Program-made: the position numbers and the translations under genes
In this document: one piece after another, positions 1,574 through 16,559 of the stretch
Layout of the letters: the number at the start of each line of letters is the position of its first letter
How positions within the stretch are numbered: position 1 is the first letter of the stretch
Notes under the pieces: model-generated
What the model saw: only the letters and a program-made list of their open reading frames with translations
What the model was told of the DNA's origin: nothing
The model's database searches: none
Source of the DNA: Cyclobacteriaceae bacterium
GTDB lineage: Bacteria; Bacteroidota; Bacteroidia; Cytophagales; Cyclobacteriaceae
Direction: 5' to 3'
Assembly: GCA_016787645.1 (NCBI GenBank)
Contig: JAEUUF010000016.1
Location: 101,956 to 165,955, forward strand
Length of the DNA: 64,000 nucleotides

Positions 1574-1604
1574 GTTGTATAGACAATAATACCCGCTACT
1601 TTTG
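1574..1604 (+). promoter_or_regulatory. marR promoter with overlapping MarR-type operator
   Basis: A Bacteroidota-type promoter: TTG at 1575-1577, 19-base spacer, TACTTTTG at 1597-1604. The operator-like dyad GTTGTATAGACAAT (1574-1587) covers the upstream TTG. It matches the perfect palindrome at 11845-11858 at 12 of 14 positions. A second half-site GTTGTAT lies at 1604-1610, exactly 30 bases downstream of the first, over the start codon. The position suggests autorepression by the MarR protein encoded next. The start codon is only 4 bases after the downstream box, so the mRNA may be leaderless. Confidence 0.65.
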
Positions 1605-1608
1605 TTGT

Positions 1609-2088
1609 ATGGCCCTCGAAGACGAAATCCGGCAGGAGAAATTTGAAAGCGACTTTCACAAGACGGCTGTAAATATCCTGTTTACCAGCAGTTGGCTCTA
1701 CAACCTCAATGCCATGCGGCTCAAGCCACATGACATCACCCCCGAACAGTTCAATGTGTTAAGAATTTTGCGAGGCAGCCATCCTAAAGCACTCATGCTG
1801 GCTGACATTTCCTGCCGGATGATCGATAAAAGCAGCAATGCCACCCGCCTGGTGGAGAAGCTTCGCCAAAAGGGGATGGTTAGCCGGACGCAGTGTGAGA
1901 ATAACCGCCGCCAGGTAGACATCCACATCACGTCCAAAGGGCTCCGCACCCTGGAGTCGATCGATAAGGAATCGAAGAACTGGACAGGAACCCTCAAGAA
2001 TATTTCGAAGGAGGAAGCAAAGGAGCTTAATCGGATTCTCGACAAGCTCCGCGGCGGGAAACCGCAAAATGTAAAACGGGAAATGTAA
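1609..2088 (+). CDS. MarR family transcriptional regulator
   Basis: A 159-residue winged-helix regulator. The DNA-binding domain spans about residues 45-110, with a recognition-helix region (DISCRMIDKSSNATRLVEKL) followed by a beta wing (SRTQCENNRRQVDIHIT). MarR proteins act as dimers, usually as repressors released by phenolic ligands or by thiol oxidation. Two cysteines (in DISCRM and TQCEN) flank the recognition helix and could be redox sensors, but this is inference. An almost identical palindrome in front of this gene and in front of the pirin operon at 11.8 kb suggests both are its targets. The last codons lie in an AAATGTAAAA repeat. Confidence 0.9.
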   Translation: MALEDEIRQEKFESDFHKTAVNILFTSSWLYNLNAMRLKPHDITPEQFNVLRILRGSHPKALMLADISCRMIDKSSNATRLVEKLRQKGMVSRTQCENNRRQVDIHITSKGLRTLESIDKESKNWTGTLKNISKEEAKELNRILDKLRGGKPQNVKREM

Positions 2089-2099
2089 AATGTAAAAGT
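2065..2099 (+). repeat. AAATGTAAAA short repeats at the marR 3' end
   Basis: Three imperfect copies of AAATGTAAAA run from the last codons of marR into the short gap before the convergent gene. They encode the tail NVKREM and may be a low-complexity insertion or slippage product. No function is seen. Confidence 0.4.
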
Positions 2100-2107
2100 G
2101 GCGTTTG

Positions 2108-2617
2108 TCAGTGCTTGCGGGCCTTGTTGGCTCGAATCATCTCTGGAAATCCCTGGCCACTTCCTAAAGCAATTACTGCCATAGTAATGCGTTTTGTTTT
2201 TGTTTCTACAGTCTTGGCCTCTTCGATCCACTTGCTAAAGTAACGCTGGTGTGATCCCGACAACGTTCTAAAATGAGAAATGGCCCGGGCATCGTCTTTC
2301 AGGCATTTCATGAAGTCGGCGGAAGGCGGGATCGTGCGCTGATCTACCTCCAGGGAAACAGTGAGCGAATCGCCTTGTCCCTTCCCGATCGCTTTCCTCA
2401 TTTTGGCGTTGAGCGGAATAATGAAAGCGCCTTCGCCCATCGGTAGAAGCGCCACTCGCTGGATCGGGTGCTGGTCCAGGGTACCCTTAACCCGGTATCC
2501 GGTCTTCTTGCCGGGGTTTAGTTTCTGGGCCTGGGATGCACTGATCCGGATGTAGGTCCAACCCGTCTTTTCGCCCATTTTTCCAAAGCGCAGGATCTTG
2601 GTGGTGAATCGGACCAT
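2108..2617 (-). CDS. DUF1905/YdeI-type (OmpD-associated) protein
   Basis: A 169-residue protein whose N-terminal half (about residues 3-90, ending before DQRTIPPSADF) resembles DUF1905. Its C-terminal part (about 95-145, FMKCLKDDARAISHFRTL...YFSKWIEEAKTVETKTKRI) is the YdeI/OmpD-associated helical region. The frame opens at a TTG at 2623, but the ATG at 2617 is preferred. The biochemical function is unknown. The family is small, cytosolic and widespread in Bacteroidota. It lies 22 bases downstream of the FtsX-like permease on the same strand and could be its last cotranscribed gene. Confidence 0.75.
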   Translation of the reverse strand: MVRFTTKILRFGKMGEKTGWTYIRISASQAQKLNPGKKTGYRVKGTLDQHPIQRVALLPMGEGAFIIPLNAKMRKAIGKGQGDSLTVSLEVDQRTIPPSADFMKCLKDDARAISHFRTLSGSHQRYFSKWIEEAKTVETKTKRITMAVIALGSGQGFPEMIRANKARKH

Positions 2618-2639
2618 GACCAAAGATAAGGAGGCTCAA

Positions 2640-5228
2640 CTATTCGCTCCGGAGCGTCTGCGCAGGATTCTCTTTCACGACTCGTCTCATTTGCGAGCCT
2701 ATCGTCAGTGCCACCGTCAGGAACATAATGGAGATGGCGACGGCAAAGGGAAATACCCCGGCAGGTTGCGGATCAGGATAGATAGCGTGAATCAGCTGGC
2801 TCATCAGAAAAAATCCTGCTGGAGCACCAACCAAAAAGGCGATTGTCAGGATCCAGGCGTAGTCGCGGTTCATCAGGCGAAAGATTTGAAGCGTGTTCGC
2901 TCCGAAAACCTTCCGTACACTGAACTCCTTGAGGCGTCGGGTAATGTTGTAGGCCACGAGGCCAAACAACCCCAGGCACGCAAGGATGAGGGTAATGATC
3001 GCAACAGAAATGATGATGGTCATGTCGTTGCGGTTGTTGCGATTGAAGTTGTAAAAGACATCATTTTGTAAGATTCCCCGGTAGGGATCATCCGGGCCGA
3101 TCTCTTTCCACAGCGTACGCATATCGGACTCAATCTGGCCGGCGTTTTCTTCCCGGGCTTTGATGGCAAGGTATCGGTAGGCAGTCTCTGGAGCCAGGGT
3201 AAACAGCGCGGGCCGAAGGCCCATATAGAAGTCATCATGGTGGAAATCATGCACGACACCGATCACCGTCCGTTGCTTGCCATCATACATGAAGAACTGG
3301 TTGAGGCCGTCCACCCACCCCATGGCCTTCACAAAATTCTCGTTGACGACCACCGAAGCTACCGAATCGGAAGGCATGGTACGGTCAAAGAACCGCCCGG
3401 TCTTCAGCCGGAGATTCATGGTCTCCAGGTAGTCGTAGCCCACATCGAAGCGCAGCATCTCGAATTTGTTGCCAACGTGCTCCAATACCGTTCGTTCAGC
3501 GCTTGAGCCGATGTGATGTGCCGCGCCCGCATACTGAACAACATCCGTGCGGGTGGCTATTTTGTCGCGAAGTTTCAGGTATTGCTCCTGGTTATTCACC
3601 GGCACAACAACATTCTGATGGTGATCGTATCCCCAGTCTTTCCTGCGCATGTAAAGGCTGTTGTCAATGAAAAGAAAACAGCCGACGATCGTCATGAACG
3701 CGAGAATGAACTGCATGGTGAGCAGAATGCGGCTAAAAGCGCTGCGCTGCCCAAATTTCTCTTTGCCCTTCAGAATCTGCACCGGTTGAAAACCCGCGAC
3801 ATAGACTGCCGGGTACACCCCGGAAATCATGACGGTGAAGATAAGTATGCCCGTGAAGAAGGTCAGCATCATGGTCCCTGAAGAGAATGCGAATGGAATA
3901 GGATACCCCACCAGGGAGATAAGTCCCGGCATGAAAAGCAAGTAGGAAATAAGTAATCCAGCGATCACGGCAAACGCGCACATGAGGATGTTCTCCGCGA
4001 TGAACTGTTGCACGATTTCCGATTTGCGTCCGCCCACCACTTTGCGTATGCCGATCTCTTTCAGCCGGGTCGTAATAGTAGCCACGGAAATGTTGGTGTA
4101 ATTGAAGCAGGCCAAAAGCAGGAGCAGGAAGGCAATGACACACATGGTGTAAATTCCCTGGGGTTGACCCGGTCCCATCATATTGCTTTCAATTTCGCCG
4201 CTGCTCGTGTTAAGATCGTCTTGACTGTAGAAGCGGAATTCTTCGATGGGCCAGTCCGGCGAAGCTTCGTTCTGGAGTTTCTTGTATTTGGCCATCAGCG
4301 GTTGAAGCGATTCAATGGCCTGGCCCTCTTTCAGCATAACGAAGGTTGCGTCAGTCAGGTAATTCCAATCATAAACATCTTTGAGTTTCAAGCTTTGAAA
4401 CACGTCCATCGAAAGAACGATGTTGAAATGCAGTGTGTTGTTGGCCGGAAGGTTGGCAACGGCGCTCACCACGAATTCGCGGGTGGCGTTGTTGGGAAAT
4501 TTCATTGAGACGGTCTGGCCGACGGGATTGTGGTCGCCAAAGTACTTTTCCGCCACGGGTTGAGTGATCACGATGCTGTTGGGGGATTTCAGCGCATCAG
4601 AAGGCACACCGAATTGGTCAAATGAAAAGATTTCAAAAAAGGCAGGATCGGTATACCATAGCCGCTCGAAGAAGACGGTTTCACCGTAGCGCAATGCCCC
4701 GTTTCCCACTTCTATCCGTGTCATTTTCTCAATGCTGGAGGCATCTTCCTGGAGCATAGGCCCCAACAAAAGTGGCGTATCACTCAGGATAACGTGGGCG
4801 CTGTCACGATTGACGATGTTGGTCACTTCATAGATGCGGTCCCGGTTCAGGTGATAGTCATCGGTATGAAACCACTGGTCAGCGAATATGAAAATGGTGA
4901 TGGCCCCGGCAACACCAAGGGAAAGGCCCCCGATGTTAATCAGGGAGGTCAGGCCATTGCGGACCGCGTTGCGAAAGCCGATGAGGAGGTAATTGTAGAA
5001 CATAGTCAGCGAGTAATTCTGATAGCGATCGGATGCCATTCGAATATTCTTTAGCCGGAAGAACCGGAATACATTCCACACAAACTGAAGCCGCGCCAAC
5101 CGTAGGGATTGCCTCGCCTTCCGGTCGAAGAGCTCGTGCACATCGCCCTGGATTTCTTCCAGGCGGTCGGCCCGGCAGTACCATTCCAGGAAGCGATCCG
5201 CCCATCGGGGAGGCGCGTGTGTTTTCAT
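2640..5228 (-). CDS. FtsX/MacB-like ABC transporter permease with N-terminal prefix domain
   Basis: An 862-residue inner-membrane protein. Residues 1-75 form a soluble prefix (MKTHAPPRWADRFLEWYCRA...) found in Bacteroidota permeases of this type. Next come a membrane segment near 85-110, a MacB-like periplasmic domain (about 110-350), three FtsX helices (about 360-520), a second periplasmic domain (about 550-730) and three more FtsX helices (about 740-850). The conserved IGIRKVVGGRKSEI and FSVRKVFGAN cytosolic loops are present. No ATPase is adjacent, so the partner must be encoded elsewhere or ATP may not be used. The gene overlaps the PadR regulator by 4 bases, which indicates translational coupling. 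Confidence 0.88.
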   Translation of the reverse strand: MKTHAPPRWADRFLEWYCRADRLEEIQGDVHELFDRKARQSLRLARLQFVWNVFRFFRLKNIRMASDRYQNYSLTMFYNYLLIGFRNAVRNGLTSLINIGGLSLGVAGAITIFIFADQWFHTDDYHLNRDRIYEVTNIVNRDSAHVILSDTPLLLGPMLQEDASSIEKMTRIEVGNGALRYGETVFFERLWYTDPAFFEIFSFDQFGVPSDALKSPNSIVITQPVAEKYFGDHNPVGQTVSMKFPNNATREFVVSAVANLPANNTLHFNIVLSMDVFQSLKLKDVYDWNYLTDATFVMLKEGQAIESLQPLMAKYKKLQNEASPDWPIEEFRFYSQDDLNTSSGEIESNMMGPGQPQGIYTMCVIAFLLLLLACFNYTNISVATITTRLKEIGIRKVVGGRKSEIVQQFIAENILMCAFAVIAGLLISYLLFMPGLISLVGYPIPFAFSSGTMMLTFFTGILIFTVMISGVYPAVYVAGFQPVQILKGKEKFGQRSAFSRILLTMQFILAFMTIVGCFLFIDNSLYMRRKDWGYDHHQNVVVPVNNQEQYLKLRDKIATRTDVVQYAGAAHHIGSSAERTVLEHVGNKFEMLRFDVGYDYLETMNLRLKTGRFFDRTMPSDSVASVVVNENFVKAMGWVDGLNQFFMYDGKQRTVIGVVHDFHHDDFYMGLRPALFTLAPETAYRYLAIKAREENAGQIESDMRTLWKEIGPDDPYRGILQNDVFYNFNRNNRNDMTIIISVAIITLILACLGLFGLVAYNITRRLKEFSVRKVFGANTLQIFRLMNRDYAWILTIAFLVGAPAGFFLMSQLIHAIYPDPQPAGVFPFAVAISIMFLTVALTIGSQMRRVVKENPAQTLRSE

Positions 5229-5563
5229 GCCAATCGGAACTGCAAAGCCACCTTGGGTATCTGATTGAATAGTTGAGTTCTTAATTCATTTGCGTCTTCC
5301 AGCGCGCGTTTGCCTGCAGCGGTAAGTAGAAAAATGCGTTTTCTACGCCCGCCGCGTTCCTCGGTGGGTTCACTCATTCGGGACTTCAGCAATCCTTTGT
5401 CTTCCAGGCGGGTGAGTACCGAGTGGGCCGCGCTGATATTGAGACTCCTCCCGGTTTGTTTTTCGATTTCATCCATTACAGCCACTCCATAGGCGTTGGG
5501 GTGCAGGATGCCAACATGCAGCAGGACAAGTTCTTCCAGCTCACCAAGATAGGTTCCTTTCAT
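5225..5563 (-). CDS. PadR family transcriptional regulator
   Basis: A 112-residue winged-helix regulator of the PadR family. It shows the usual opening (MKGTYLGELEELVLLHVGIL) and a wing with SEPTEERGGRRKRIFLLTAAG, where Arg/Lys residues contact DNA. It sits directly upstream of, and overlaps, the FtsX-like permease. PadR-permease pairs of this kind are common in Bacteroidota and the regulator is expected to control the permease. Its own operator was not identified with confidence. The dyad at 5748-5765 is nearer to the divergent gene at 5775. Confidence 0.9.
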   Translation of the reverse strand: MKGTYLGELEELVLLHVGILHPNAYGVAVMDEIEKQTGRSLNISAAHSVLTRLEDKGLLKSRMSEPTEERGGRRKRIFLLTAAGKRALEDANELRTQLFNQIPKVALQFRLA

Positions 5564-5744
5564 ACGTGTAAATTTTCGGTTAGGTCAGGTAATAGTTCTG
5601 CAAACGTGAAAGAAATGGCTATGTTTCACTTTTGTGGAAGAAATTCACCCGGGAACACAGAGAAACCTCATGGAAGGCAGAATCAATTATTTTTCAGGCT
5701 CGACCGTCTGACCCAAATCAGTACAAATCCAACACACCATTCCT

Positions 5745-5765
5745 TATATTTGGTTTCTACCAAAT
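5745..5765 (+). promoter_or_regulatory. Promoter -7 box with overlapping dyad upstream of the Asp-box protein
   Basis: TATATTTG at 5745-5752 matches the Bacteroidota -7 consensus TAnnTTTG. It overlaps a perfect 7-base dyad, ATTTGGT (5748-5754), ttct, ACCAAAT (5759-5765), which ends 9 bases before the ATG at 5775. It could be an operator or a short RNA hairpin near the translation start. A convincing upstream TTG box was not found. Confidence 0.45.
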
Positions 5766-5774
5766 CCTGACCCA

Positions 5775-8700
5775 ATGAGAACTTCACCTGATTTTCGAAC
5801 GCTATTTACCATGGCCTTTCTTCTGCTCTTCGCCACGTCAGTGGCTCAGACGCTGAAGCCCGAAGAAATCGATCAACTTAAATTCCGCCACATTGGCCCG
5901 ATTGGAAACCGGGTAACCTGTGTTGCCGGCGTCCCCGGCAACGATATGGTTTATATCGTCGGTGCAGCCACCGGTGGTGTGTGGAAAACGGTTGATGGAG
6001 GATTGAGCTGGAAGGCCGTGTTTGACAAAGAGAATGTACATGCGATCGGCGCAGTGGCCATATCCATGTCCGACCCGCGGGTCGTATACGTTGGCACAGG
6101 CGAGAGTTCCATTCGCTCCAACATCTCCATCGGCAATGGAGTCTATAAATCAACCGACGGCGGCGAAACGTGGTCGCTGGTAGGCCTGGAGAATTCCGGC
6201 CGCGTGAGCCGGATCATCGTTCATCCTACCAACCCGGATATCGCCTGGGTGGGAGCGCTCGGTCATGCCTATGCCCCTCAAAAAGAACGCGGTCTCTACA
6301 AGACGACCGATGGGGGTAAGAGTTGGAAACAAGTGCTGTTTGTGGACGAGAATACCGGCGTATCGGACATGACCATAGACCTGACGAACCCGCGTATCCT
6401 GTTTGCCGGGTTGTGGCAGTTGTCATTGAAAACCTGGAACCGCACCAGCGGAGGCACAGGCAGCGGATTATATATGTCGAAAGACGGAGGAGACACCTGG
6501 ACACGCCTGAAGGGCGCCGGGCTGCCGGAAACACCGGTTGGTAAAATCTCGGTAAGCATGACGCCGGCTGCACCCGACCGTGTCTACGCCCTCATTGAAA
6601 CGGGCGACGGCCTGGAGAAAATTGGCGACAAAGGCGAAACCGGCGAACTGTGGAGATCCGACGACAAGGGAAAATCCTGGCGCATGATCAATGCCAACCG
6701 CAACCTCACCGGGCGGCAGGCTTATTATACCCGGGTCGCGGCATCTCCCGACCAGATCAATGACGTGTACTTCATCTCGTCCACGTTCTTTAGCAGCATT
6801 GATGGCGGGCGATCCATCGAGCCCATCATGGATTTTCTGAGCCAGCCGAACTGGGATCACCACGAGATGTGGATTGATCCAACCAATGGCAATCGCATGT
6901 CGGTCGCTGGTGACGGTGGTATCTCCATTTCCAAGAACCGCGGGAAGACATGGCAGCGCACAATCCTGCCCGTTGCTCAATTATATCACGTAACCGTTGA
7001 CAACGCCATTCCCTACAATGTGCTCACCAACCGCCAGGATGGACCTTCCATGCGTGGCCCCAGCCGGAGCAACACAGGCGGATTCTTCAACCTGGGAATT
7101 GCCACGGGCATGTGGCATGACGTAGGCGGCGGAGAAAGTGGTTTCGCCACACCCGATCCCAAGGATCCTAACATTGTTTATTCCAGTGCGTCTGGAACCG
7201 GGGCAGTTGGTGGAGTAGTGGTTCGATTCAATGAGAAGACACGCCAATATCGCCAGGTTGAAATATGGCCTGAATACACTGCCGGTCATCCGGCCAGCGA
7301 AGTGAAGTACCGCTTCCAGTGGACATTCCCGCTGCTCATCAGCCCGCATAACAACAATACTCTTTATGCGACCAGCCAGGTAGTTCATCGTACCACCAAT
7401 GGCGGGCAGACCTGGGAAGTAATCAGTCCGGATCTGACACTCAATGACAAAAACATGCAAAAGATGTCGGGCGGATTGACCCCCGACAACATTGGCGTTG
7501 AATATGCCAACGTGATCTATGCTTTTGAAGAGTCACCGGTGAAACAGGGATTATTCTGGGCCGGGACAAATGACGGACAAGTACAGGTAAGCCGGGATGG
7601 CGGAAAAAGCTGGTCTAATGAGACGAAAAGTATTCCGGAACTGCCGCCGCTGGGAACCGTGCGAAACATTGAGGCCTCGAAGTGGAGCGAAGGCAAAGCT
7701 TACATTACCGTGGATTTGCATGAAGTAGGCAACTTCCAGCCGTTCGTATATCGCACTACCGATTTTGGGAAGACCTGGAAGAAAATTGTGAAAGGAATTC
7801 AGCCTGGCAATCTCAACTACTGCCGAAATATCAAGGAAGATCCGATTCGCAAGGGTTTGCTTTATCTCGGTACAGAGAGCACACTTTACATTTCATTCGA
7901 TGATGGCGAGAACTGGTCGGTGTTCATGCCGAACCTTCCTCATACGCCCATGTACTGGCTCGAAGTGCAGGAACATTTCAACGACCTTGTTTTGGGAACT
8001 TACGGCCGCGGTGCGTGGATCCTCGATGACCTGACACCCCTGCAACAACTTCCGGCAAATCCTTCGGCAGTGAAAGCGGCCCTCTTCAACCCGAAGGATG
8101 CTTATCGGTTCCAGTATCGCACCTCGACTATGCAAATCTTCCCGGAACCATCCACGGGCGAAGATCCACCCTATGGAGCGTCCATTAACTTCTGGGTAAA
8201 TAATGACAAGGATAGCGTCAAGATTTTCATCACCGGTTCGGCCGGAGATACGGTGAAGACTTTCAAGATGAAAGGCAAGCCCGGCATCAATCGTGTTTGG
8301 TGGGACCTCCGCGGCAAAGAAGGAAAGAGCATCACGATGCGCACATTGCCCACGGCCGGTGAGTGGGTAGGGCTCGACAAGAACCGTACCCGGAATGCCT
8401 ACATCACCAACCCGATCCGCAACTTCCTGGTTCCCCCGGGCAAGTATGGAGTAAGCATGGTGGCAGGAGATCAGAAATTCACCAGCTCGCTCAATATTGT
8501 CAAAGACCCCAGCTCGGAGGGGTCGGTGGCTGACATTCAGGCCCAAACAGAAATGTTGACCAAGTTGCAAGCTGACTACAACACGATAGCAGATATGGTC
8601 AATCAGATTGAATGGGTAAGGCGCCAGGTGTATGATTTGCGCGATGTGCTCTCCTCGAAGGCGAAGTATAAGAACCTCGCGAAGTCGGCTGGAAAGCTGG

Positions 8701-9002
8701 ACAGCACCTTGCAAGCAGTTGAAGGCAAGTTGGTACAGTTGAAATACACCGGCACCGGTCAGGACGACGTCCGTTACCCGGACATGCTGGCCGGCAAGCT
8801 TGGCTACCTTTTCAATGCCGTGTCTACCGGTGATTTCCCTCCCACGGATTCACACAAAGAAGTGTATACCGTCCTGAAGGGTCGCCTCACGGAATCGCAG
8901 GCTGAATATGAAAAGGTGATGAGTACCGCGCTGGCGGATTTCCTGAAGCAACTGCAGGAGAACGATATTAAACCGATTGTGGCAGATTGGAAAAAGAAGT
9001 AG
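5775..9002 (+). CDS. Exported Asp-box (BNR/VPS10-like) beta-propeller protein
   Basis: A 1075-residue protein with a signal peptide (about residues 1-24, hydrophobic core MAFLLLFATSVA). At least eight Asp-box motifs recur: STDGGETW, TTDGGKSW, SKDGGDTW, SDDKGKSW, TTNGGQTW, SRDGGKSW, TTDFGKTW and SFDDGENW. Such motifs build sialidase- or sortilin-like propellers, probably two here, over residues 30-780. The C-terminal 290 residues contain a beta-rich segment and then helices (about 920-1070). Similar proteins are usually annotated as glycosyl hydrolase or sortilin-like, but no catalytic residues identify a reaction. It is monocistronic, with a strong terminator after it. Confidence 0.8.
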   Translation: MRTSPDFRTLFTMAFLLLFATSVAQTLKPEEIDQLKFRHIGPIGNRVTCVAGVPGNDMVYIVGAATGGVWKTVDGGLSWKAVFDKENVHAIGAVAISMSDPRVVYVGTGESSIRSNISIGNGVYKSTDGGETWSLVGLENSGRVSRIIVHPTNPDIAWVGALGHAYAPQKERGLYKTTDGGKSWKQVLFVDENTGVSDMTIDLTNPRILFAGLWQLSLKTWNRTSGGTGSGLYMSKDGGDTWTRLKGAGLPETPVGKISVSMTPAAPDRVYALIETGDGLEKIGDKGETGELWRSDDKGKSWRMINANRNLTGRQAYYTRVAASPDQINDVYFISSTFFSSIDGGRSIEPIMDFLSQPNWDHHEMWIDPTNGNRMSVAGDGGISISKNRGKTWQRTILPVAQLYHVTVDNAIPYNVLTNRQDGPSMRGPSRSNTGGFFNLGIATGMWHDVGGGESGFATPDPKDPNIVYSSASGTGAVGGVVVRFNEKTRQYRQVEIWPEYTAGHPASEVKYRFQWTFPLLISPHNNNTLYATSQVVHRTTNGGQTWEVISPDLTLNDKNMQKMSGGLTPDNIGVEYANVIYAFEESPVKQGLFWAGTNDGQVQVSRDGGKSWSNETKSIPELPPLGTVRNIEASKWSEGKAYITVDLHEVGNFQPFVYRTTDFGKTWKKIVKGIQPGNLNYCRNIKEDPIRKGLLYLGTESTLYISFDDGENWSVFMPNLPHTPMYWLEVQEHFNDLVLGTYGRGAWILDDLTPLQQLPANPSAVKAALFNPKDAYRFQYRTSTMQIFPEPSTGEDPPYGASINFWVNNDKDSVKIFITGSAGDTVKTFKMKGKPGINRVWWDLRGKEGKSITMRTLPTAGEWVGLDKNRTRNAYITNPIRNFLVPPGKYGVSMVAGDQKFTSSLNIVKDPSSEGSVADIQAQTEMLTKLQADYNTIADMVNQIEWVRRQVYDLRDVLSSKAKYKNLAKSAGKLDSTLQAVEGKLVQLKYTGTGQDDVRYPDMLAGKLGYLFNAVSTGDFPPTDSHKEVYTVLKGRLTESQAEYEKVMSTALADFLKQLQENDIKPIVADWKKK

Positions 9003-9016
9003 TGGTTGCTGCTTAA

Positions 9017-9058
9017 GAAATGACCCATGCGCCTGTAGTGCATGGGTCATTTCCTTTT
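9017..9058 (+). terminator. Rho-independent terminator (probably bidirectional)
   Basis: A perfect 14-base stem, GAAATGACCCATGC (9017-9030) with GCATGGGTCATTTC (9040-9053), has a 9-base loop and is followed by CTTTT. It lies 14 bases after the stop of the Asp-box gene and between convergent genes, so it can also stop transcription from the amylase unit. Confidence 0.9.
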
Positions 9059-9089
9059 AAAACGGATTATTGGGTGAGCTTCTTATGGG

Positions 9090-9677
9090 TCAATTACCCT
9101 CGATTCTTACGGATGGCATTTCTGCTTCGATCACCTGATTTAAGAATTTCATCCGGCGGTCCCCCAGGGCACTCAGAAATGGGGTAATCTCATCTTCATA
9201 GGCCCTATTCGAATAAGCAAAAATGAGTAAAGCTTTTCTGCCAGCTCCTGAATCGATTTGCCGGTATCGATAGATGTTAAATTCAACGATAGTCATGTGA
9301 TCGCCTTTGCTTGCACCGAGCAAGAAATCAACAATGAACTCTTTCTGGTCAGGACTCTCGGTGATCGAGTAGTTGCAAATGGGGTCAGTCTGCTTCCTTT
9401 GTGTGAGTTCTTTCACTTTTACTTTCACTGCATCTTCTACCGGAACTTCCGTGTCAAACAAATGAAGGGTAAGCATTTGATGGAAGGCCTCCACGGTCTC
9501 GCCGTCCGGCAGATATTCTTGAATGTAATATTTTTCATTGGGTTTGGCCGTCCATGCCAGTTTAAAATGGGTTTTGTCAAAAGTTAATGGTCCCTTCACA
9601 CCCAGTCGGTCGACAGGGCTTTCAATGCCCGTGAAGGAAAGCAGTAGTGCGACCGCCAGGAGGAGCGTCAGTTTCAT
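9090..9677 (-). CDS. Secreted protein of unknown function
   Basis: A 195-residue protein that I do not recognise. It begins with a clear signal peptide (MKLTLLLAVALLLSFTG). The mature part is predicted alpha/beta with an acidic, charged composition and a single Cys (DPICNYS). It overlaps the upstream GH13 amylase by 4 bases (ATGA), so the two are translationally coupled and probably act in the same extracytoplasmic process. No catalytic motif was seen. Confidence 0.75.
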   Translation of the reverse strand: MKLTLLLAVALLLSFTGIESPVDRLGVKGPLTFDKTHFKLAWTAKPNEKYYIQEYLPDGETVEAFHQMLTLHLFDTEVPVEDAVKVKVKELTQRKQTDPICNYSITESPDQKEFIVDFLLGASKGDHMTIVEFNIYRYRQIDSGAGRKALLIFAYSNRAYEDEITPFLSALGDRRMKFLNQVIEAEMPSVRIEGN

Positions 9678-11035
9678 TTTGCTTTGTCGGATTTAGAACG
9701 GCCTGCCACATACTCGTACACTGCATAACCCCACGGGCCTATGGACACTGGTTTTGTGGTGAGGGTTTCCTTGCGGGACTCAAAGACATTGTAAACCTGG
9801 CCCGTCAAGGACTTGTCAGTGATCGTAGTGGGCTGTTGCGATCCTGAAAAATTCAGGATGACCAGCACTTTGTTCTTTCCCTTTTCACGAATAAACGCGT
9901 AAACAGCCTTATCATCGCCTATACTGACTTTTCGGAATGACCCGTCAGAAGCCAACGCGCTGTTGCGTTCCCGGAGAGAAAGCAACGTTTTATAAAAGGG
10001 GGCTCGTTCAAACTTTTGAAAAACCATGGGGTCTTTGTCAAAGAACTTCAGGGGACGCAAGACCGGTTCTTCTTGTCCGTTGTAGATCAGTGGGACACTG
10101 TTCGCCATAGTTTGCGTGAAGACGGCGAAAGGAGCGTGCACGGAGCCGGGGAAAGTTCCGTAGTCGGCTTTGTTCCAGCTGTTCTCGTCATGATTGGAAG
10201 TAAAGTACATCTGGATAGTGCCCGATGGATAGAGTCGGTCTTGTTCAGCGTGGATGCTGTCGAGGCCGGTTGCAGTGCGTGTTCCTTTGGCCACTTTTTC
10301 CATCATTTTGAACATGTGCCAGGGATATACCGCGTCGAAACCACTCTGCGGAAGATAGGCGTTGTCTCCTTCGGCCAACATGAAGATGGATTTCATTTGC
10401 TTCAATTGTGGAATGGCCCGCTGCCAGAAGGAGCCGGGAACATTCCAGGCCACGTCGCATCGAAACCCATCAATGTCCGCCCGGGTGATCCAATATTTCA
10501 TAGCCGCAATCATGCTGTCTTGCATCACGGTGTTCTTGTAGTTCAATTGCCGGGTGTCGGCCCAGTCAACCGCAATGGCCGCTCTACCAAGACTGTCTTT
10601 TACAAAGAAATCCGGCTGCTGGGTTAACCAGCGATGATCGCCACCGGTATGGTTGGGCACCCAATCGATGATCACTTTCATTCCCCGATCATGGCTGGCC
10701 TTGACCAGTTTAATGAAATCGTCCATGGTTCCGAACTCAGGATTGAGAGCAGTGTAGTCAGATACGGCATAGTAACTTCCGAGGGAACCCTTACGATCCA
10801 CGTGGCTGATCGGGTTGATTGGCATGAACCAAAGTGTTTGTACACCCATATTCTTCAGCCGATCCAGGTGTTTGGCAAATGCATTTAACGTCCCTTCATC
10901 GGTGTACTGGCGGACATTGACTTCATAGATATTTCCTTGCAGAATCCATGGGGGATGTTGTTGGTTGGCCGCAACCTGGCCAAATCCCTGCCGAAGGACT
11001 AATTGAAGGAGGAGAAGAAGGATTACTCTTTTCAT
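9674..11035 (-). CDS. Exported GH13 alpha-amylase family enzyme
   Basis: A 453-residue glycoside hydrolase with a signal peptide (about 1-20). All four GH13 signature regions are visible: DWVPNH at 124-129, GFRCDVAW at 190-197 with nucleophile Asp194, AEGD with acid/base Glu222, and NHDEN at 281-285 with transition-state Asp283. A short C-terminal beta domain follows (about 365-445). It should act on alpha-glucans such as starch or maltodextrins in the periplasm or outside the cell. It is followed by an overlapping small secreted protein. No SusC/SusD pair is in view, so this is not a classic polysaccharide utilisation locus. Confidence 0.92.
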   Translation of the reverse strand: MKRVILLLLLQLVLRQGFGQVAANQQHPPWILQGNIYEVNVRQYTDEGTLNAFAKHLDRLKNMGVQTLWFMPINPISHVDRKGSLGSYYAVSDYTALNPEFGTMDDFIKLVKASHDRGMKVIIDWVPNHTGGDHRWLTQQPDFFVKDSLGRAAIAVDWADTRQLNYKNTVMQDSMIAAMKYWITRADIDGFRCDVAWNVPGSFWQRAIPQLKQMKSIFMLAEGDNAYLPQSGFDAVYPWHMFKMMEKVAKGTRTATGLDSIHAEQDRLYPSGTIQMYFTSNHDENSWNKADYGTFPGSVHAPFAVFTQTMANSVPLIYNGQEEPVLRPLKFFDKDPMVFQKFERAPFYKTLLSLRERNSALASDGSFRKVSIGDDKAVYAFIREKGKNKVLVILNFSGSQQPTTITDKSLTGQVYNVFESRKETLTTKPVSIGPWGYAVYEYVAGRSKSDKAK

Positions 11036-11124
11036 TCTGTTAAATTAATATTTATTAGCTATCGAATTGGCTAACCCTGTTGCCCATTTTAAACCTTCGT
11101 TTCGATCTAACCTAACTACCCTCC

Positions 11125-11799
11125 ATGAATACAACCAACCCCTTTCGCCTGACCGCCGCCACGGCCATTGGATTGCTCATCTCCCTCTTCGGGCTTGCCT
11201 TCTTTGCCATTTGGTACCGCGACTGGTATGGCATTAGTATCTCATCTGTGCTGGTGCGTGAAGGACTGATCTTTGTTCTCGTTGGAATTCTCTTGTTCAT
11301 TATACGCCTGGAAGGCCTTGGGCTGGAATCGGTCGGTCTGAAATTCAGTTCGATCGGAAAGTCGGTTGGCTTGGCCTTGCTGATTTGCTTAATTTCCATC
11401 GCAGGCGTCTTGCTATGCATAGTGCTCATGCAATACCTGGGATGGAAGGTGGGAGGGGAAGAGGCTGGCGCCTACAAGGATATCCCGGTGTGGGCTCTCT
11501 TTATCATGGTGCTTCGGGCGGGTATTGCCGAAGAGCTGTTTTATCGTGGTTATGCGATTGAGCGTATCAAAGCGCTTACCGGCAGCCAGTGGGTGGCGAT
11601 TGCGGTTCCCCTCCTGATATTTTCCATTGGCCATTTTCGGCAGGGACCAGGGGGTATACTCATTTCTTTTGTGGCCGGAGCGATTCTTACGGCCACCTAC
11701 CTCTGGAAAAAGGACCTGCTGGCCAACATGATTGCACACTTCCTCGTCGACTTCATTCCTAATGTTGCCTTGCCACTGCTGGGCGTGGACAATAGCTAG
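11125..11799 (+). CDS. CPBP family intramembrane metalloprotease
   Basis: A 224-residue integral membrane protein with about seven or eight helices. It carries the CPBP (Abi/Rce1-like) motifs: EELFYR with Glu136, Glu137 and Arg141; FSIGHF with His170; and HFLVD with His205 and Asp209. These residues form the metal site in Rce1-type glutamate proteases. The substrate is unknown. Family members process prenylated proteins, bacteriocins or regulators. It is divergent from the amylase gene and stands about 100 bases upstream of the pirin operon, which has its own promoter. Confidence 0.88.
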   Translation: MNTTNPFRLTAATAIGLLISLFGLAFFAIWYRDWYGISISSVLVREGLIFVLVGILLFIIRLEGLGLESVGLKFSSIGKSVGLALLICLISIAGVLLCIVLMQYLGWKVGGEEAGAYKDIPVWALFIMVLRAGIAEELFYRGYAIERIKALTGSQWVAIAVPLLIFSIGHFRQGPGGILISFVAGAILTATYLWKKDLLANMIAHFLVDFIPNVALPLLGVDNS

Positions 11800-11844
11800 T
11801 ACAGCGTGATTTTCCCCACCGCCCTGAACTTTTGGACTTGAATA

Positions 11845-11875
11845 GTTGTATATACAACAATGGTATATAACTTTA
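11845..11875 (+). promoter_or_regulatory. Pirin operon promoter with perfect MarR-type palindrome
   Basis: GTTGTATATACAAC (11845-11858) is a perfect 14-base palindrome. The TTG within it (11846-11848) lies 19 bases before TAACTTTA (11868-11875), which fits the Bacteroidota -33/-7 arrangement. The marR promoter at 1574-1604 has a near-identical palindrome in the same geometry. Binding there would block the promoter. I infer repression by the MarR protein at 1609-2088. Confidence 0.65.
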
Positions 11876-11898: not shown

Positions 11899-12621
11899 AT
11901 GAAAACCGTCATTCACAAAGCCGAAACCCGGGGTCACGCCAATCACGGCTGGCTTGATTCGTATCACACCTTCAGCTTCGCGGGATATTATGAGCCCTAC
12001 CGCGTCCACTTTGGGCTCCTGCGGGTGCTCAACGACGATGTCGTGAAAGGCGGGATGGGCTTTGGCCAGCACCCGCACGACAATATGGAGATTGTCTCGA
12101 TCCCGTTGCGGGGCGCTCTAGAGCATCGCGACAACACCGGAGGACACGCCATAATCAAATCCGGGGAAGTGCAGATCATGAGCGCGGGTTCGGGGATTGC
12201 CCACAGTGAAAAAAACGCATCCGCTTCGGAGGAAGTGAACTTCCTTCAGATCTGGGTATTTCCCAAGGAAAGAAATATTCAGCCACGGTATGAGCAGCGT
12301 GTATTCGCCAAGGCAGACCGCGTCAATAAACTTCAAACCGTAGTGTCACCAGGCAAAGAAAACGGTGCGCTCTGGATCAACCAGGACGCATGGTTCAGCC
12401 TGGCAGATATCTCTCAAGGAACAAGCCTTGAGTATACGTTGCGGAAGAAGGGGAGCGGTGTCTACGTGTTTGTGATCGAAGGCACCGTCACCATAGGCAC
12501 CCAGGCCCTCAACAAAAGAGATGGCCTTGGGATTTATGACACAGAAGGTTTTGTCATGGAAGCCAACCAGGATACTGAAGTGTTATTGATGGAAGTACCC
12601 ATGAACGGAATTGAACGATGA
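11899..12621 (+). CDS. Pirin family protein (first of two)
   Basis: A 240-residue bicupin. The N-terminal cupin holds the metal site of pirins: His58 and His60 (QHPHDNME), His102 and Glu104 (IAHSEKN). The N-terminus GHANHGWLDSYHTFSFAGYY is that of YhhW/pirin proteins. Some members have quercetin 2,3-dioxygenase activity. Others are redox-sensitive regulators. The natural substrate here is unknown. It is the first gene of a redox operon and overlaps the second pirin by 4 bases. It is preceded by the MarR-type palindrome. Confidence 0.92.
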   Translation: MKTVIHKAETRGHANHGWLDSYHTFSFAGYYEPYRVHFGLLRVLNDDVVKGGMGFGQHPHDNMEIVSIPLRGALEHRDNTGGHAIIKSGEVQIMSAGSGIAHSEKNASASEEVNFLQIWVFPKERNIQPRYEQRVFAKADRVNKLQTVVSPGKENGALWINQDAWFSLADISQGTSLEYTLRKKGSGVYVFVIEGTVTIGTQALNKRDGLGIYDTEGFVMEANQDTEVLLMEVPMNGIER

Positions 12622-13487
12622 AAAACAGAACGATATCCCGGCTGCTCTATGCACACCAGGTGGACATGGGCGGCCTTCCCGTTCGCCAACCTTTGCCTAC
12701 TCAGCAAGTTGGTCAGGTCGATCCCTTCCTGCTGTTGCACCACGCGGACATTAAGGTGCCATCCACGATAGAGCCAGATCATGCCGGAGTCGGGCCGCAC
12801 CCGCACCGTGGGTTTTCGCCGGTCACATTTATTTTCAAAGGAGGCGTGCACCATCGGGACAGCCGGGGCAATGACAGCACGATCTATGCCGGCGGCGCTC
12901 AATGGATGAATGCCGGTCGCGGTATTATTCACAGCGAACGGCCTACCCACGATATTCATGAAATCGGCGGACGGCAAGAAATCATCCAGTTGTGGATCAA
13001 CACGCCCGCCGAACGGAAAATGGATCAACCATCGTATTTCCCGCTGGAGGCCGATAAGGTGCCCGTCGTGAAATCAGCAGATAGACAGGTGGAGGCGAGA
13101 ATATTTTCGGGACAATTGTTAGGTGTGCAAGGCCCGATCCCGTCGCCTGCCGATGTGAATGCGGCCACCCTCGCGTTTGCCAAGGGTGGCAAAATCTCGG
13201 TACCTGTTCCAGCACATCATAATGCCCTGGTGTATCTGCTCGACGGAAAACTTACCGTGGAGGGATTTGGCATGGTAGAAGCTTTGCACCTGGTCCATTT
13301 CAACAATGATGGTGATGGATTGACCCTGGAAGCTTTAGAAGATACGCGTGCCCTGGTGCTAAGCGGCGCTCCACTTCATGAAGAAGTCGTATCGTACGGT
13401 CCTTTTGTGATGAATACCCAGACGCAGATCCTCGAAGCCATGCGCGATTACCGGGTCGGCAAAATGGGTGTACTGATTGAAGAGTAA
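12618..13487 (+). CDS. Pirin family protein (second of two)
   Basis: A 289-residue pirin of a subgroup distinct from its neighbour. It opens with RTISRLLYAHQVDMGGLPVRQPLP and has the metal residues His61 and His63 (GPHPHRG), His105 and Glu107 (IIHSERP). The C-terminal cupin (about 190-280) lacks an obvious metal site, as is usual. The ATG overlaps the stop of the first pirin, so the two are coupled. Two divergent pirins in a row suggest a heterodimer or two related substrates. This is inference. Confidence 0.9.
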   Translation: MKNRTISRLLYAHQVDMGGLPVRQPLPTQQVGQVDPFLLLHHADIKVPSTIEPDHAGVGPHPHRGFSPVTFIFKGGVHHRDSRGNDSTIYAGGAQWMNAGRGIIHSERPTHDIHEIGGRQEIIQLWINTPAERKMDQPSYFPLEADKVPVVKSADRQVEARIFSGQLLGVQGPIPSPADVNAATLAFAKGGKISVPVPAHHNALVYLLDGKLTVEGFGMVEALHLVHFNNDGDGLTLEALEDTRALVLSGAPLHEEVVSYGPFVMNTQTQILEAMRDYRVGKMGVLIEE

Positions 13488-13504
13488 ACTATAACCTATT
13501 GATC

Positions 13505-13903
13505 ATGGAAAACAATTCTGTTCGATTTACCCCCGTACTCAAAGCGGGAATTATTGCTGGCTTTTTTGGCGTTGGACTCAACAACCTGTGGAGCCTGTTG
13601 GCGGCGGCTTTCGGAGCAACCATTCCCCCGGCCTTTGCCATTGCGGTAACCTTGTCCTCCTTGTTACCGGTGATCGTGGCCTCATTGATCTATTTTGTTC
13701 TGGCCCGGTTTACCGCCAAGGGCACGCTTATCTTTACCGTATTGGGAACAGGCTTTTTGCTTTTCAGTTTCGTTCCCATCTTTTCTACAACGCAGCTACC
13801 GGATGGTACCGCCGTTGACGACACATTTCCATTGCTGGTGGCACCGATGCACGTTATTTCAGGCGCCCTGGCCCTGTATGGCATTCCGAAGTGGTCAAGG
13901 TGA
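13505..13903 (+). CDS. Small membrane protein (DUF6069-like)
   Basis: A 132-residue protein with four predicted transmembrane helices (about residues 12-35, 43-65, 70-92 and 108-128). A TTG at 13499 opens the frame but the ATG at 13505 is preferred. It resembles the DUF6069 group by length, helix spacing and its AGFFGVGLNNLW start, but I assign this only tentatively. It follows the second pirin by 17 bases and is probably cotranscribed. Confidence 0.7.
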   Translation: MENNSVRFTPVLKAGIIAGFFGVGLNNLWSLLAAAFGATIPPAFAIAVTLSSLLPVIVASLIYFVLARFTAKGTLIFTVLGTGFLLFSFVPIFSTTQLPDGTAVDDTFPLLVAPMHVISGALALYGIPKWSR

Positions 13904-13958: not shown

Positions 13959-14540
13959 ATGATCGCCGAAATGCCTGATACCATTGAAATGCCTATCCTG
14001 GAGCCGATTGCTTCGCGCCGAAGCCGGAGGGCGTTTGCCCCGGAAACGGTGTCACAGGATCAAATTGATACCTTGTTTGAAGCGGCGCGGTGGGCCCCGT
14101 CAAGCGTGAATGAGCAACCGTGGCGATATGTCTATGCCACCAAAGGACAACTTTTGTGGGAGACGATCTTTGAAGCGCTGAATGACGGCAACAAAGTATG
14201 GGCAAAGGAAGCCCAACTGTTCATCGTAAGCATGGCCAAAAAAGCATTCAGCAGAAATGGGAGGCCAAATCCTACTGCCCTTTACGACCTGGGAGGTGCA
14301 AACGCTTTCCTCTCACTCCAGGCTGCCAGCATGGGGCTCAATGTTCACCAAATGGGCGGTTATGATCGCGATACACTTCGAATGAGCCTGAATATCCCGG
14401 AAGAACTGGAGCTCGGCGTAGTCATGGCTATTGGCTTCCCGGGTGACGCGGCGCTTTTGCCCGAACCCTTGCGTACCCGTGAACTTTCGCCCCGGGTGAG
14501 GATGACCCGGTCGGAATTTGTTATGAACCAACCCTTCTGA
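13959..14540 (+). CDS. Nitroreductase family protein
   Basis: A 193-residue flavoprotein of the nitroreductase fold. SRRSRRAF near residues 18-25 and APSSVNEQPWRY (about 47-58) are the FMN phosphate and isoalloxazine contacts. The C-terminal GFPGD/RTRELSPRV region is characteristic of a short nitroreductase subgroup. It should reduce quinones, nitroaromatics or a similar electrophile with NAD(P)H. It sits in the pirin operon, next to osmC with a one-base gap, consistent with detoxification of reactive aromatics. Confidence 0.88.
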   Translation: MIAEMPDTIEMPILEPIASRRSRRAFAPETVSQDQIDTLFEAARWAPSSVNEQPWRYVYATKGQLLWETIFEALNDGNKVWAKEAQLFIVSMAKKAFSRNGRPNPTALYDLGGANAFLSLQAASMGLNVHQMGGYDRDTLRMSLNIPEELELGVVMAIGFPGDAALLPEPLRTRELSPRVRMTRSEFVMNQPF

Positions 14541-14541
14541 A

Positions 14542-14952
14542 ATGGAATCCAAGGAAGTTCAAACCGCGATCGCTGTTATCGGCAAAGATCATTACCGGAC
14601 TACACTTCAATCGCGGACGCACACGCTGGTTGGAGATGAGCCACTTGAGATTGGAGGCAAGGACCTGGGTCCGCGCCCCGGTGATTTTGTTCGCATGGCG
14701 TTGGCGTCATGTACTGCGATTACCCTTCGGATGTATGCTGACCGAAAGCAATGGCCGGTCGACCAGATTGAAGTACGGGTATCGAACGGGCCCTTCCAAG
14801 AGAAGACAACCTATACCAGTGACATAGAAATTACGGGAAACCTCAGCGTAGAGCAGAAGGAACGGATGCTCCAGATTGCTAAATTGTGCCCGGTACATAA
14901 GACACTGACCAATCCGGTTGAGATTATCACTCACCTCTCACTGATCCAATGA
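14542..14952 (+). CDS. OsmC family peroxiredoxin-like protein (operon copy)
   Basis: A 136-residue OsmC/Ohr-fold protein. The two catalytic cysteines are visible as Cys57 (ALASCTAI) and Cys116 (KLCPVHKT). Such proteins reduce organic hydroperoxides using a dithiol. MarR-family regulators (OhrR) commonly control Ohr/OsmC genes, which fits the operator upstream of this operon. It overlaps the following iron-sulfur protein by 4 bases. A second OsmC protein of a different subgroup is at 54401. Confidence 0.92.
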   Translation: MESKEVQTAIAVIGKDHYRTTLQSRTHTLVGDEPLEIGGKDLGPRPGDFVRMALASCTAITLRMYADRKQWPVDQIEVRVSNGPFQEKTTYTSDIEITGNLSVEQKERMLQIAKLCPVHKTLTNPVEIITHLSLIQ

Positions 14953-15377
14953 AAGACATTGTCAAGAAATACTCCAACGGTGAAGTAACCATTGTCTGGA
15001 AACCTTCGCTTTGCATTCATTCCAGGAATTGCTTCACCGGTTTAGGTGAGGTCTTCCATCCCCAGGAACTGCCCTGGATCACCCCTCAGCGATCGACCAC
15101 AGATAAGATTATCGACCAAATCAAGAAGTGCCCTTCCGGGGCGCTCAGCTATGTAATGAACAATGAGGTTCCTTCTGCCGAGGAGCCCACCGGACAAAGC
15201 ACATTGGTAGAGCCTTCACCCAATGGGCCGCTGATGGTGCATGGCACGCTTGCTATTAAGAAGCCGGACGGCACAATTACCCGCAAGGAGAAGGTTACCG
15301 CATTTTGCCGCTGCGGGGGCTCGGCCAACAAGCCCTTTTGCGACGGCACCCATCGGAAGATCGGTTTCCAGGACTAG
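14949..15377 (+). CDS. Fused Fer4_19 (YjdI-like) and CDGSH iron-sulfur protein
   Basis: A 142-residue protein with two iron-sulfur domains. Residues 1-70 match the YjdI/Fer4_19 type, with Cys22, Cys28 and Cys61 (KKCPSGAL). Residues about 95-142 are a CDGSH domain with Cys120, Cys122, Cys131 and His135, the 3Cys-1His ligands of a redox-active [2Fe-2S] cluster. A linker rich in Pro/Glu joins them. It is the last gene of the pirin operon. Electron transfer to the nitroreductase or OsmC, or redox sensing, is possible but unproven. Confidence 0.9.
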   Translation: MKDIVKKYSNGEVTIVWKPSLCIHSRNCFTGLGEVFHPQELPWITPQRSTTDKIIDQIKKCPSGALSYVMNNEVPSAEEPTGQSTLVEPSPNGPLMVHGTLAIKKPDGTITRKEKVTAFCRCGGSANKPFCDGTHRKIGFQD

Positions 15378-15617: not shown

Positions 15618-16559
15618 CTAGTTTTCCACTGCCATCACTCGCGTGTCTTGAACCTTCTTCACGGAATCAGGCAAATGCTTCTCGATTTCCTGCTTCAACA
15701 CTTCCAGTAGCCGGACCCGGTGAAAATTCACGGCTGTGACCAGGCTGATTTCCCGGACGGGCTTGGGCGGGGCAAATTCGCGAATCTTCTCTTTCTGTTT
15801 CCTGGTAAGATCAAGGGTAGCCAGGTGAGGGAGAATCGTGATGCCCTGGTGATGATCTACCAGGTTTTTCAATGTCTCCAGGCTCCCGGTTTCATAATGA
15901 AGGCGGTCGCTCTCAAAATCCTTCTTCTTGAGCTCACAAAGATCCAGGACCTGGTTCCTCAGGCAATGCCCCTCTTCCAGCAGCCAAAGTTTACTCAAGT
16001 CAATGTCTTTGGGTAGCACATAACGTTTCCTGGATGCCCGTTCATTCTCCGCCACATAGGCATGGAACTCTTCCTGGTAAATGGGATGTTCGACGAGCTT
16101 GGGATCATTCAATGGCGTGGCCAGCAAGGCGATATCCAGTTCATCCGTCTTCAGACCATGGATGATTTCGTCAGTGACCAATTCGCGAATGCTGATCTTC
16201 AAATGGGGATATTTTTCCGCAAAGGACTTGAGAAACAAAGGGAGCAGATAGGGTGCTACCGTGGGGATCACCGCCAGCCTGACCTCCCCGGATACCTCCT
16301 CCTTGAGCTGCCGGGCAAAATCCTTCAGGCGATTGACATCGGCGAGGATCTGCTTTGCCCGGTTGATTACTTCTTCCCCCTCCCGGGTGGGCGCGATTGG
16401 CTGACGCGAGCGATCAAAGATCCGGATGCCCAATTCGGTTTCGAGCTTCTGCACCATCATGCTCAGCGTGGGCTGTGTGACAAAACATTTTTCCGCGGCG
16501 CGCGCAAATTGCCGCTGGTGGTCCAGCGCAATGATGTACTCCAGTTGCTGCAGGTTCAT
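15618..16559 (-). CDS. oxyR: Hydrogen peroxide-inducible genes activator OxyR
   Basis: A 313-residue LysR-type regulator. The N-terminal helix-turn-helix spans about 1-60 (ALDHQRQFARAAEKCFVTQPTLS). The effector domain contains Cys199 and Cys208 (GHCLRNQVLDLC), at exactly the positions and spacing of the redox disulfide pair in E. coli OxyR. It should therefore sense hydrogen peroxide and activate antioxidant genes. Candidate targets in this window are not certain. The promoter region has a TATCTTTG box on the minus strand (16579-16586) inside an ATAG/CTAT-rich dyad, consistent with autoregulation. Confidence 0.94.
   Translation of the reverse strand: MNLQQLEYIIALDHQRQFARAAEKCFVTQPTLSMMVQKLETELGIRIFDRSRQPIAPTREGEEVINRAKQILADVNRLKDFARQLKEEVSGEVRLAVIPTVAPYLLPLFLKSFAEKYPHLKISIRELVTDEIIHGLKTDELDIALLATPLNDPKLVEHPIYQEEFHAYVAENERASRKRYVLPKDIDLSKLWLLEEGHCLRNQVLDLCELKKKDFESDRLHYETGSLETLKNLVDHHQGITILPHLATLDLTRKQKEKIREFAPPKPVREISLVTAVNFHRVRLLEVLKQEIEKHLPDSVKKVQDTRVMAVEN

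Follow-up and report, generated by a model that had tools for sequence, protein, structure and literature searches.

Matching palindromes in the promoters of a marR gene and a pirin operon point to a common MarR-type repressor in a Cyclobacteriaceae bacterium

The window, that is the whole stretch of 64,000 nucleotides analysed from contig JAEUUF010000016.1 of a Cyclobacteriaceae bacterium, carries a marR gene and, further downstream, an operon with two pirin genes. The marR gene (1609..2088, + strand) encodes a protein of 159 amino acids, which matches the MarR winged-helix profile PF01047 with 41.3 bits, above the curated cut-off of 24.6. The MarR fold is recovered in its AlphaFold2 model (pLDDT 90.1), with a recognition helix at residues 78-87 and a wing made of strands 91-95 and 103-107. 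Most of the 50 Foldseek matches listed carry MarR family in their titles or the name of a known member. The only cysteines of the protein are Cys69 and Cys96.

The pirin operon is of a stress type and is built by six genes, all on the + strand. The first, pir1 (11899..12621), encodes a pirin with a quercetinase-type C-terminal cupin and overlaps by 4 bp with pir2 (12618..13487), a second pirin gene. They are followed by genes for a small membrane-type protein (13499..13903), a nitroreductase-family protein (13959..14540), an OsmC-like protein (14542..14952) and, overlapping osmC by 4 bp, a Fer4_19 and CDGSH iron-sulfur protein (14949..15377). Pfam thus agrees with the gene list of the first-pass annotation for both pirins, the nitroreductase, OsmC and Fer4_19-CDGSH, while the membrane-type protein is DUF6069-like only below the cut-off (20.7 bits against 27.2).

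The promoter regions of marR and pir1 share an unusual element. A perfect palindrome had been claimed at 11845-11858, together with a copy at 1574-1587 agreeing at 12 of 14 positions; direct reading of the letters, GTTGTATATACAAC and GTTGTATAGACAAT respectively, bears out both. The common unit is longer than first noted: the 20-mers at 1571-1590 (ATTGTTGTATAGACAATAAT) and 11842-11861 (ATAGTTGTATATACAACAAT), both on the + strand, are identical at 17 of 20 positions and contain 8 and 9 of 10 symmetric pairs, respectively. These predicted operators, O1 and O2, overlap the -33 regions of the marR and pirin operon promoters and have counterparts upstream of marR orthologues (O1) and pir1 orthologues (O2). 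A possible third half-site is located at 11861..11864 (+); it reads TGGT here, and in relatives TTGT stands there in 19 of the 22 second-site promoters.

The geometry of the two promoters is also the same, as originally described. Downstream of the palindrome's TTG (1575-1577 and 11846-11848), a spacer of exactly 19 nt leads to TACTTTTG (1597..1604, +) and TAACTTTA (11868..11875, +), read directly as the -7 boxes of marR and of the pirin operon. With these boxes (the latter ending in A), the spacer of 19 and the upstream TTG, both have the -33/-7 form of Bacteroidota housekeeping promoters, whose consensus in the excerpted text of PMC6847099 is a TAnnTTTG box with an upstream TTTG-like element, the -33 element being weak. 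A sigma-70 scan was discarded as addressing the wrong promoter type. The -7 box of marR ends 4 nt before the ATG, and a leaderless mRNA is therefore predicted, using the start-point spacing given in the same excerpt. A role of the palindrome at the RNA level was rejected, because both predicted start points are downstream of it.

In the window alone, the palindrome is only mildly in excess, with four matches at up to 3 mismatches against 1.13 expected and equally high counts in 2 of 100 shuffles. Across 12 genomes, bare TTGTANNTACAA shows no excess over the reversed control pattern and was rejected as evidence in itself. The weight of the case therefore rests on the geometry and on the relatives, and a genome-wide search and a comparison across related genomes had both been proposed as checks. 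The 4.02-Mb genome contains exactly two matches to the strict pattern (TTGT-N4-ACAA, 9-11 nt, TAnnTTTA/G), namely the pair itself, and none to the reversed pattern. The exact 14-mer occurs once, and 11 places are found with up to 2 mismatches, compared to 3 for the reversed pattern. Eight of the other nine places fall inside reading frames of at least 100 codons and one (L002) lies 25 bp upstream of a 228-aa frame; in none of the nine does a TAnnTTYR box follow the TTG at 17-21 nt. Judged by the strict pattern, this MarR would have no other target in this genome; sites that are weaker or positioned otherwise may exist.

The comparison covered 80 named loci, the best 80 of 250 relatives in the Bacteroidota, which are not independent of one another and of which at least 11 are the same records as genomes of the other set (G). 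A marR orthologue with the palindrome within 100 bp is present in 64 of these 80 loci, and no such site is found in the remaining 16. A pirin gene follows downstream on the same strand in 41 of the 80, preceded by a second palindrome within 300 bp in 27; among the 14 pirin loci lacking one within this distance, six have a site before an intervening gene and eight do not. The 92 sites so found carry a TAnnTTYR box at 19 nt in 64 cases, at 18 nt in eight and at 22 nt in one, with none at 16-22 nt in 19. The flanking AT at both ends, which was not used in picking the sites, is conserved as well (89-95% and 98-100%). In a subgroup (e.g., L143, L147 and L156), the palindrome is placed 13 nt before the ATG and is therefore retained despite a changed promoter position.

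The same operon is found in four other genera (G065, G024, G033 and G084). Before pir1, three of them have GTTGTATATACAAC exactly and one has it with 1 mismatch; their sites upstream of marR are related, mostly weaker. In a comparison of 29 loci, the pirin-side site is closer to the consensus than the marR site in 18, equal in 10 and worse in 1, taking the best second site where a locus has several. Two further genomes (G015 and G093) possess this MarR with diverged sites before marR and without a pir1 match. The recurrence of the marked promoter pair in related genomes therefore looks like real regulation rather than chance.

Presence of the site also follows presence of the regulator. This MarR (E ≤ 1e-48) occurs in 23 of 196 genomes. 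From 106 genomes with a match, 50 pirin genes were taken, namely the 30 best and 20 chosen ones (from G136 and from 19 genomes in which this MarR is missing), so that the two groups are not random draws. Within the family, a full TTGT-N4-ACAA precedes 18 of the 19 pirin genes of genomes with this MarR versus 2 of the 31 of genomes lacking it (Fisher p 1.9e-10, a nominal value for related genomes that were not randomly drawn). Shuffles of the same upstream region match the 18 sites in 0-2 of 200 cases. The one genome with this MarR and no full palindrome before pir1 is G136. Within a single genus (g33), three genomes have both MarR and site (G033, G164, G184) and two have neither (G104, G140).

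A palindromic operator at its own and at a target promoter, as seen here at the sequence level, is in keeping with the MarR family. Recognition-helix residues 79-85 are unchanged in 78 or 79 of the 80 named orthologues. A survey of residue 79 in 159 distinct proteins from 177 loci assigned a TTGT-type site to 73 of 89 Thr79 proteins and an ATGT-type site to none; the Ser79 proteins (n = 70) divide into 28 with ATGT-type, two with TTGT-type and 40 with neither, the ATGT-N4-ACAT figures being raw counts. Residue 79 is thus a candidate determinant of DNA specificity. Thr79 as a proven specificity residue was rejected: in a tree of 157 proteins (length ≥ 130) all TTGT-type rows except L333 form one clade, columns 64, 68 and 99 change together with residue 79, and L398, inside the TTGT clade, has Ser79. 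The operator could be classified for 103 regulators, which form a natural data set on DNA reading by MarR proteins.

The first-pass annotation had suggested a redox or electrophile trigger from two cysteines near the recognition helix. This suggestion remains plausible for Cys96, located in the wing and conserved as cysteine in 76 of 80 orthologues. It fails for a conserved pair, since position 69 is cysteine in only 30 of 80. Within this MarR clade Cys96 is absent from L124, L151, L170 and L317, yet L124 and L151 still have TTGT-N4-ACAA.

The central proposal made for this locus, that marR and the pirin operon are controlled together, has strong support from the footprinting, from the finding that site and regulator occur together and from a pair of sites that is unique genome-wide. 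With a probability of about 0.85, the MarR encoded at 1609-2088 represses its own gene and the six-gene pirin operon through the 20-bp palindrome; binding, repression and signal are what we infer from the sequence. The operator would be ATnrTTGTAnnTACAAynAT, and a dimer at 1571-1590 and 11842-11861 would cover the -33 element together with a large part of the spacer. It would thereby exclude the housekeeping RNA polymerase at both promoters, so that MarR would repress both the marR mRNA, predicted to be leaderless, and the operon. The operon site is the better palindrome, so a tighter hold would be expected there than at marR. A signal altering MarR would presumably release both promoters together; the most plausible one would be an oxidant or electrophile that acts on Cys96, or alternatively a small aromatic ligand, to which other MarR proteins respond.

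A promoter element or a chance similarity was considered as an alternative reading of the palindrome, as it includes the -33 TTG, its excess in the window is mild and bare copies are not enriched. Equal conservation of both arms in the site tables does not count here, because it is built in by picking sites with TTGT-N4-ACAA. Chance was rejected on the two-match genome result (control 0) and the footprint in relatives, while a promoter element would not be expected to track MarR presence, to conserve the AT outside the picking pattern or to be kept nearer the start codon; this explanation is very improbable. Even less credit is given to another DNA-binding protein, above all a GntR/UTRA regulator using ACTTGTATATACAAGT-like sites. 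GntR/UTRA-type genes in other genera of this family are directly preceded by a TTGTATATACAAGT-like palindrome with a -7 box (12 matches by reading, three of which were checked and confirmed as GntR plus UTRA by Pfam). However, GntR is excluded as the common regulator because four genomes with the sites (G065, G152, G173, G164) lack any match to PF00392 at E 0.001; the genome of the window has one, in a 489-aa frame, and the flanks differ (GTTGT..ACAAC versus mostly CTTGT..ACAAGT).

The real regulator could also be a second MarR paralogue (G000:C15:599631, 42% identical), which belongs to the same family, or the OxyR-like protein with Cys199 and Cys208 whose gene adjoins the pirin operon. But the paralogue's own promoter is without TTGT-N4-ACAA, its tree group includes the MarR of G104, whose pirin promoter has no site, and OxyR has no match in the stretches around the operon of four relatives, which makes both quite unlikely. 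Activation of the pirin operon instead of repression is a little easier to envisage, as some MarR proteins act as activators, although it too is unlikely: overlap of the site with the -33 region, seen at each of the two promoters, speaks for occlusion.

Pirins, CDGSH proteins and OsmC-like proteins are common in bacteria, but their role in physiology is unclear. A repressor that, in this genome and by the strict pattern, serves only the pirin operon and itself would offer a direct handle on bacterial pirins, since whatever induces this dedicated MarR should show what the operon is there to handle. A wider reading is tentative and on balance doubtful: a widespread Bacteroidota electrophile/quinone stress regulon with a Cys96 wing sensor and a leaderless mRNA may control pirin together with nitroreductase, FMN reductase, YceI, OsmC and CDGSH. 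Essentially a single switch of its operator, between ATGT-N4-ACAT and TTGT-N4-ACAA, might have gone along with a change in the DNA-reading surface (candidate Ser79 versus Thr79), the pirin promoters changing alongside.

Among the matches listed in the open-licence literature, no MarR-pirin regulon and no such operator appears in the titles and the beginnings of abstracts. In Bacteroides fragilis, another Bacteroidota member with two pirins, pir1/pir2 mRNA increases with oxygen and when iron is low; the excerpted text of PMC11304471 names no MarR regulator for them. The nearest solved sequence is the Planctomyces limnophilus MarR 3u2r (80.2 bits by profile, positions 11-146 of 149), listed merely as regulatory protein MarR, without function or operator. 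HpaR, MprA/EmrR, SlyA, E. coli MarR and OhrR belong to the same superfamily, but their NCBIfam models give this MarR 44.8, 40, 31.7, 27 and 19.1 bits, far below the curated cut-offs of 121.2, 157, 120, 240 and 200, respectively. OhrR-type one-cysteine peroxide sensors have their reactive cysteine near the N-terminus, which does not fit cysteines at 69 and 96 only. MhqR of Bacillus and Staphylococcus is a quinone-responsive MarR repressor with a small regulon of nitroreductase- and dioxygenase-like stress genes. It shares the MarR fold, and S. aureus MhqR (9qdr, 21% identity to this MarR) is among the Foldseek matches listed; to our knowledge, it has a different operator and no pirin, OsmC or CDGSH operon. 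The system at this locus would thus represent a new regulon of a familiar type, that of an autoregulated MarR repressor, here tied to bacterial pirins.

The palindrome that the first-pass annotation placed before the first pirin gene, pir1 (11899–12621, plus strand), reads directly as GTTGTATATACAAC at 11845–11858. Its counterpart before marR (1609–2088, plus strand), at 1574–1587, is indeed identical at 12 of 14 bases, and the likeness reaches 20 bp (17/20 between 1571–1590 and 11842–11861). The proposed common geometry is likewise present in both promoters: TTG, a 19-nt spacer and then a -7 box (TACTTTTG and TAACTTTA). The genome-wide search suggested with it (TTGT-N4-ACAA, 9–11 nt, TAnnTTTA/G) gave two matches in 4.02 Mb, both of them the window sites, and the reversed control gave none over the same genome. 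The exact 14-mer exists as a single copy. Nine other genomic places match it with at most two mismatches, eight of them within reading frames that are 100 codons or longer; one of the nine (L002) lies 25 bp upstream of a 228-aa frame. None of these nine has a -7 box 17–21 nt after the TTG. The operator covers the -33 element, and the simplest reading is that MarR would repress by occluding the promoter.

Upstream of marR lies an aldo/keto reductase gene (505–1563). The pirin operon has the gene order previously described (pir1, pir2, a DUF6069-like protein, nitroreductase, OsmC and Fer4_19-CDGSH) and is probably a single transcript, as the successive gaps are only -4, 11, 55, 1 and -4 bp. Converging on it is an OxyR-like gene (15618–16559; Cys199 and Cys208); the sequence surveyed on either side of the operon in four relatives contains no counterpart of it.

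Comparison across the family, also proposed earlier, revealed that the palindrome recurs before pir1 and marR in relatives. Four other genera (genomes G065, G024, G033 and G084) possess the operon together with a MarR orthologue, and there GTTGTATATACAAC precedes pir1, with one mismatch in G033, and a -7 box follows 18–19 nt away. The marR sites of these genomes are related to the pir1 site and mostly weaker; marR and the operon are separated by 21 kb in G065 and 26 kb in G033. In G015 and G093, a nitroreductase gene is directly 3' of marR, the site has diverged, and pir1 has no match at E 1e-60. G017, from the window's own genus, has a site before marR and no pir1 match. In five more distant homologues (G003, G066, G027, G086 and G083), marR adjoins pir1, and the two probably share one transcript in most of them; pir1 of G066 has its own TTGTACGTACAA.

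Presence of the site follows presence of this MarR, which was scored in 23 of 196 family genomes (E up to 1e-48). Pir1 was matched in 106 of the 196 (E 1e-60), and 50 pir1 upstream regions were examined. A full TTGT-N4-ACAA lies within 350 bp of pir1 in 18 of 19 genomes with this MarR vs 2 of 31 without it. These two, G150 and G063, belong to one genus and carry TTGTTTAAACAA; the exception among the 19, G136 (the same record as locus L126), has a degenerate counterpart, TTGTTTATACTA. Genus g33 shows both states, MarR with site and neither. Within 200 bp, ATGT-N4-ACAT occurs in 20/31 pirin promoters of the MarR-less genomes vs 0/19 of the others (raw manual count, without shuffled control); pirin in the former is therefore possibly under a related MarR with a different operator. 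The outer operator base tracks Thr79 (TTGT-N4-ACAA) vs Ser79 (ATGT-N4-ACAT) in the MarR recognition helix. This residue is a candidate cause of the switch, unproven because there is essentially one switch on the tree.

Scanning all 196 genomes with the pattern gave 80 matches vs 46 in the reversed control (manual count). Eight precede pir1 and eight marR, the latter comprising six identified among the pattern matches plus G084 and G163 by position. Another 12 precede genes reading as GntR type, and the three checked have GntR and UTRA domains (Pfam). GntR as the common regulator was ruled out, as PF00392 finds nothing in G065, G152, G173 or G164. The GntR-type genes with palindrome and -7 box (loci L195, L196, L224, L227, L230, L232, L248, L249, L251 and L258–L260) belong to other genera of the family, and their TTGT-N4-ACAA is often TTGTATATACAAGT; judging from sequence, they are likely a second, unrelated autoregulation. 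TTGT-N4-ACAA with a -7 box also precedes a putative lipoyl-domain acyltransferase in three genomes of one genus (L218–L220) and a putative ribosomal protein L21 in two of a single genus (L225, L226), both named by reading; these sites may reflect chance or other regulators. The other pattern matches are assorted, in line with the control level.

Named-genome contigs were scanned with nine orthologues, and the best 80 of 250 relatives were kept. Cyclobacteriaceae, Chryseolinea and related MAGs make up most of them; some carry the label Chitinophagales or Sphingobacteriales, and at least 11 duplicate records of the family genomes. MarR has TTGT-N4-ACAA (at least 9/12 consensus matches) within 100 bp in 64/80 loci. 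Pirin lies downstream on the same strand in 41, with a second site within 300 bp in 27; six of the remaining 14 have a site before an intervening gene, and eight have no second site at either position. Elsewhere, 28 further sites occur in the 1.30 Mb examined, including those six. Between marR and pirin, these loci have as little as 75 bp and as much as >8 kb; the arrangement thus drifts, and the window's 10 kb is one of its states. A subgroup (L155, L157, L161, L165 and L166) has before marR a palindrome that is longer and more widely spaced, approximately AAAAAGTTGTC-N5-GACAACTTTTT, with pir1 no more than about 95 bp downstream of marR. The marR orthologue frame of L166 (10001–10447) contains an in-frame stop.

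At 29 loci, the target site, taken as the best where there were several, was compared with the marR site: it is closer to the consensus in 18, equal in 10 and worse in one, as expected if the target were held more tightly than the repressor gene. Next to the -7 box, at offset 15, TTGT is found in 19 of 22 distinct second-site promoters (within L093–L169, chosen for a -7 box at 19-nt spacing) vs 17 of 55 marR promoters; its window counterpart is degenerate, TGGT. This TTGT may serve as an additional half-site, or it may belong to the promoter itself, PMC6847099 mentioning an AT-rich motif at -18.

The window's -7 box and marR ATG lie within 1597–1611. Among the named loci (L092–L171), a TAnnTTYR box ends 3–5 nt before the ATG in 42/80 and 3–7 nt before it in 48/80. 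As transcription starts 4–5 nt after the -7 box in Flavobacterium johnsoniae (PMC6847099), the A of the ATG is predicted at or next to +1, and a conserved leaderless marR mRNA is predicted. In this phylum, few mRNAs are leaderless or have very short leaders (5.5% in F. psychrophilum, PMC9723704), and leaders under 10 nt account for about 3.7% in B. thetaiotaomicron (PMC7366714).

Of the two cysteines proposed as a redox or electrophile trigger, Cys96, modelled just after the first wing strand, is common (76/80 named orthologues, with one further sequence truncated by a stop; 146/159 distinct proteins of the wider set), whereas Cys69, on the helix that precedes the recognition helix, is not (30/80). 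Thr79-clade members lacking Cys96 are L124, L151, L170 and L317. A putative thiol switch at Cys96 is plausible. In relatives that carry these sites, YceI and an NADPH-dependent FMN reductase join the set (L144, L120), and yceI of L144 has a third site some 50 bp upstream. Combined with nitroreductase and pirin, they would point to stress from quinones or electrophiles.

By title or abstract start, none of the matches listed among open-licence papers describes a MarR–pirin regulon, and the MarR protein reaches no cut-off of the NCBIfam equivalogs. Its profile, AlphaFold2 model and Foldseek matches place it in the MarR family.
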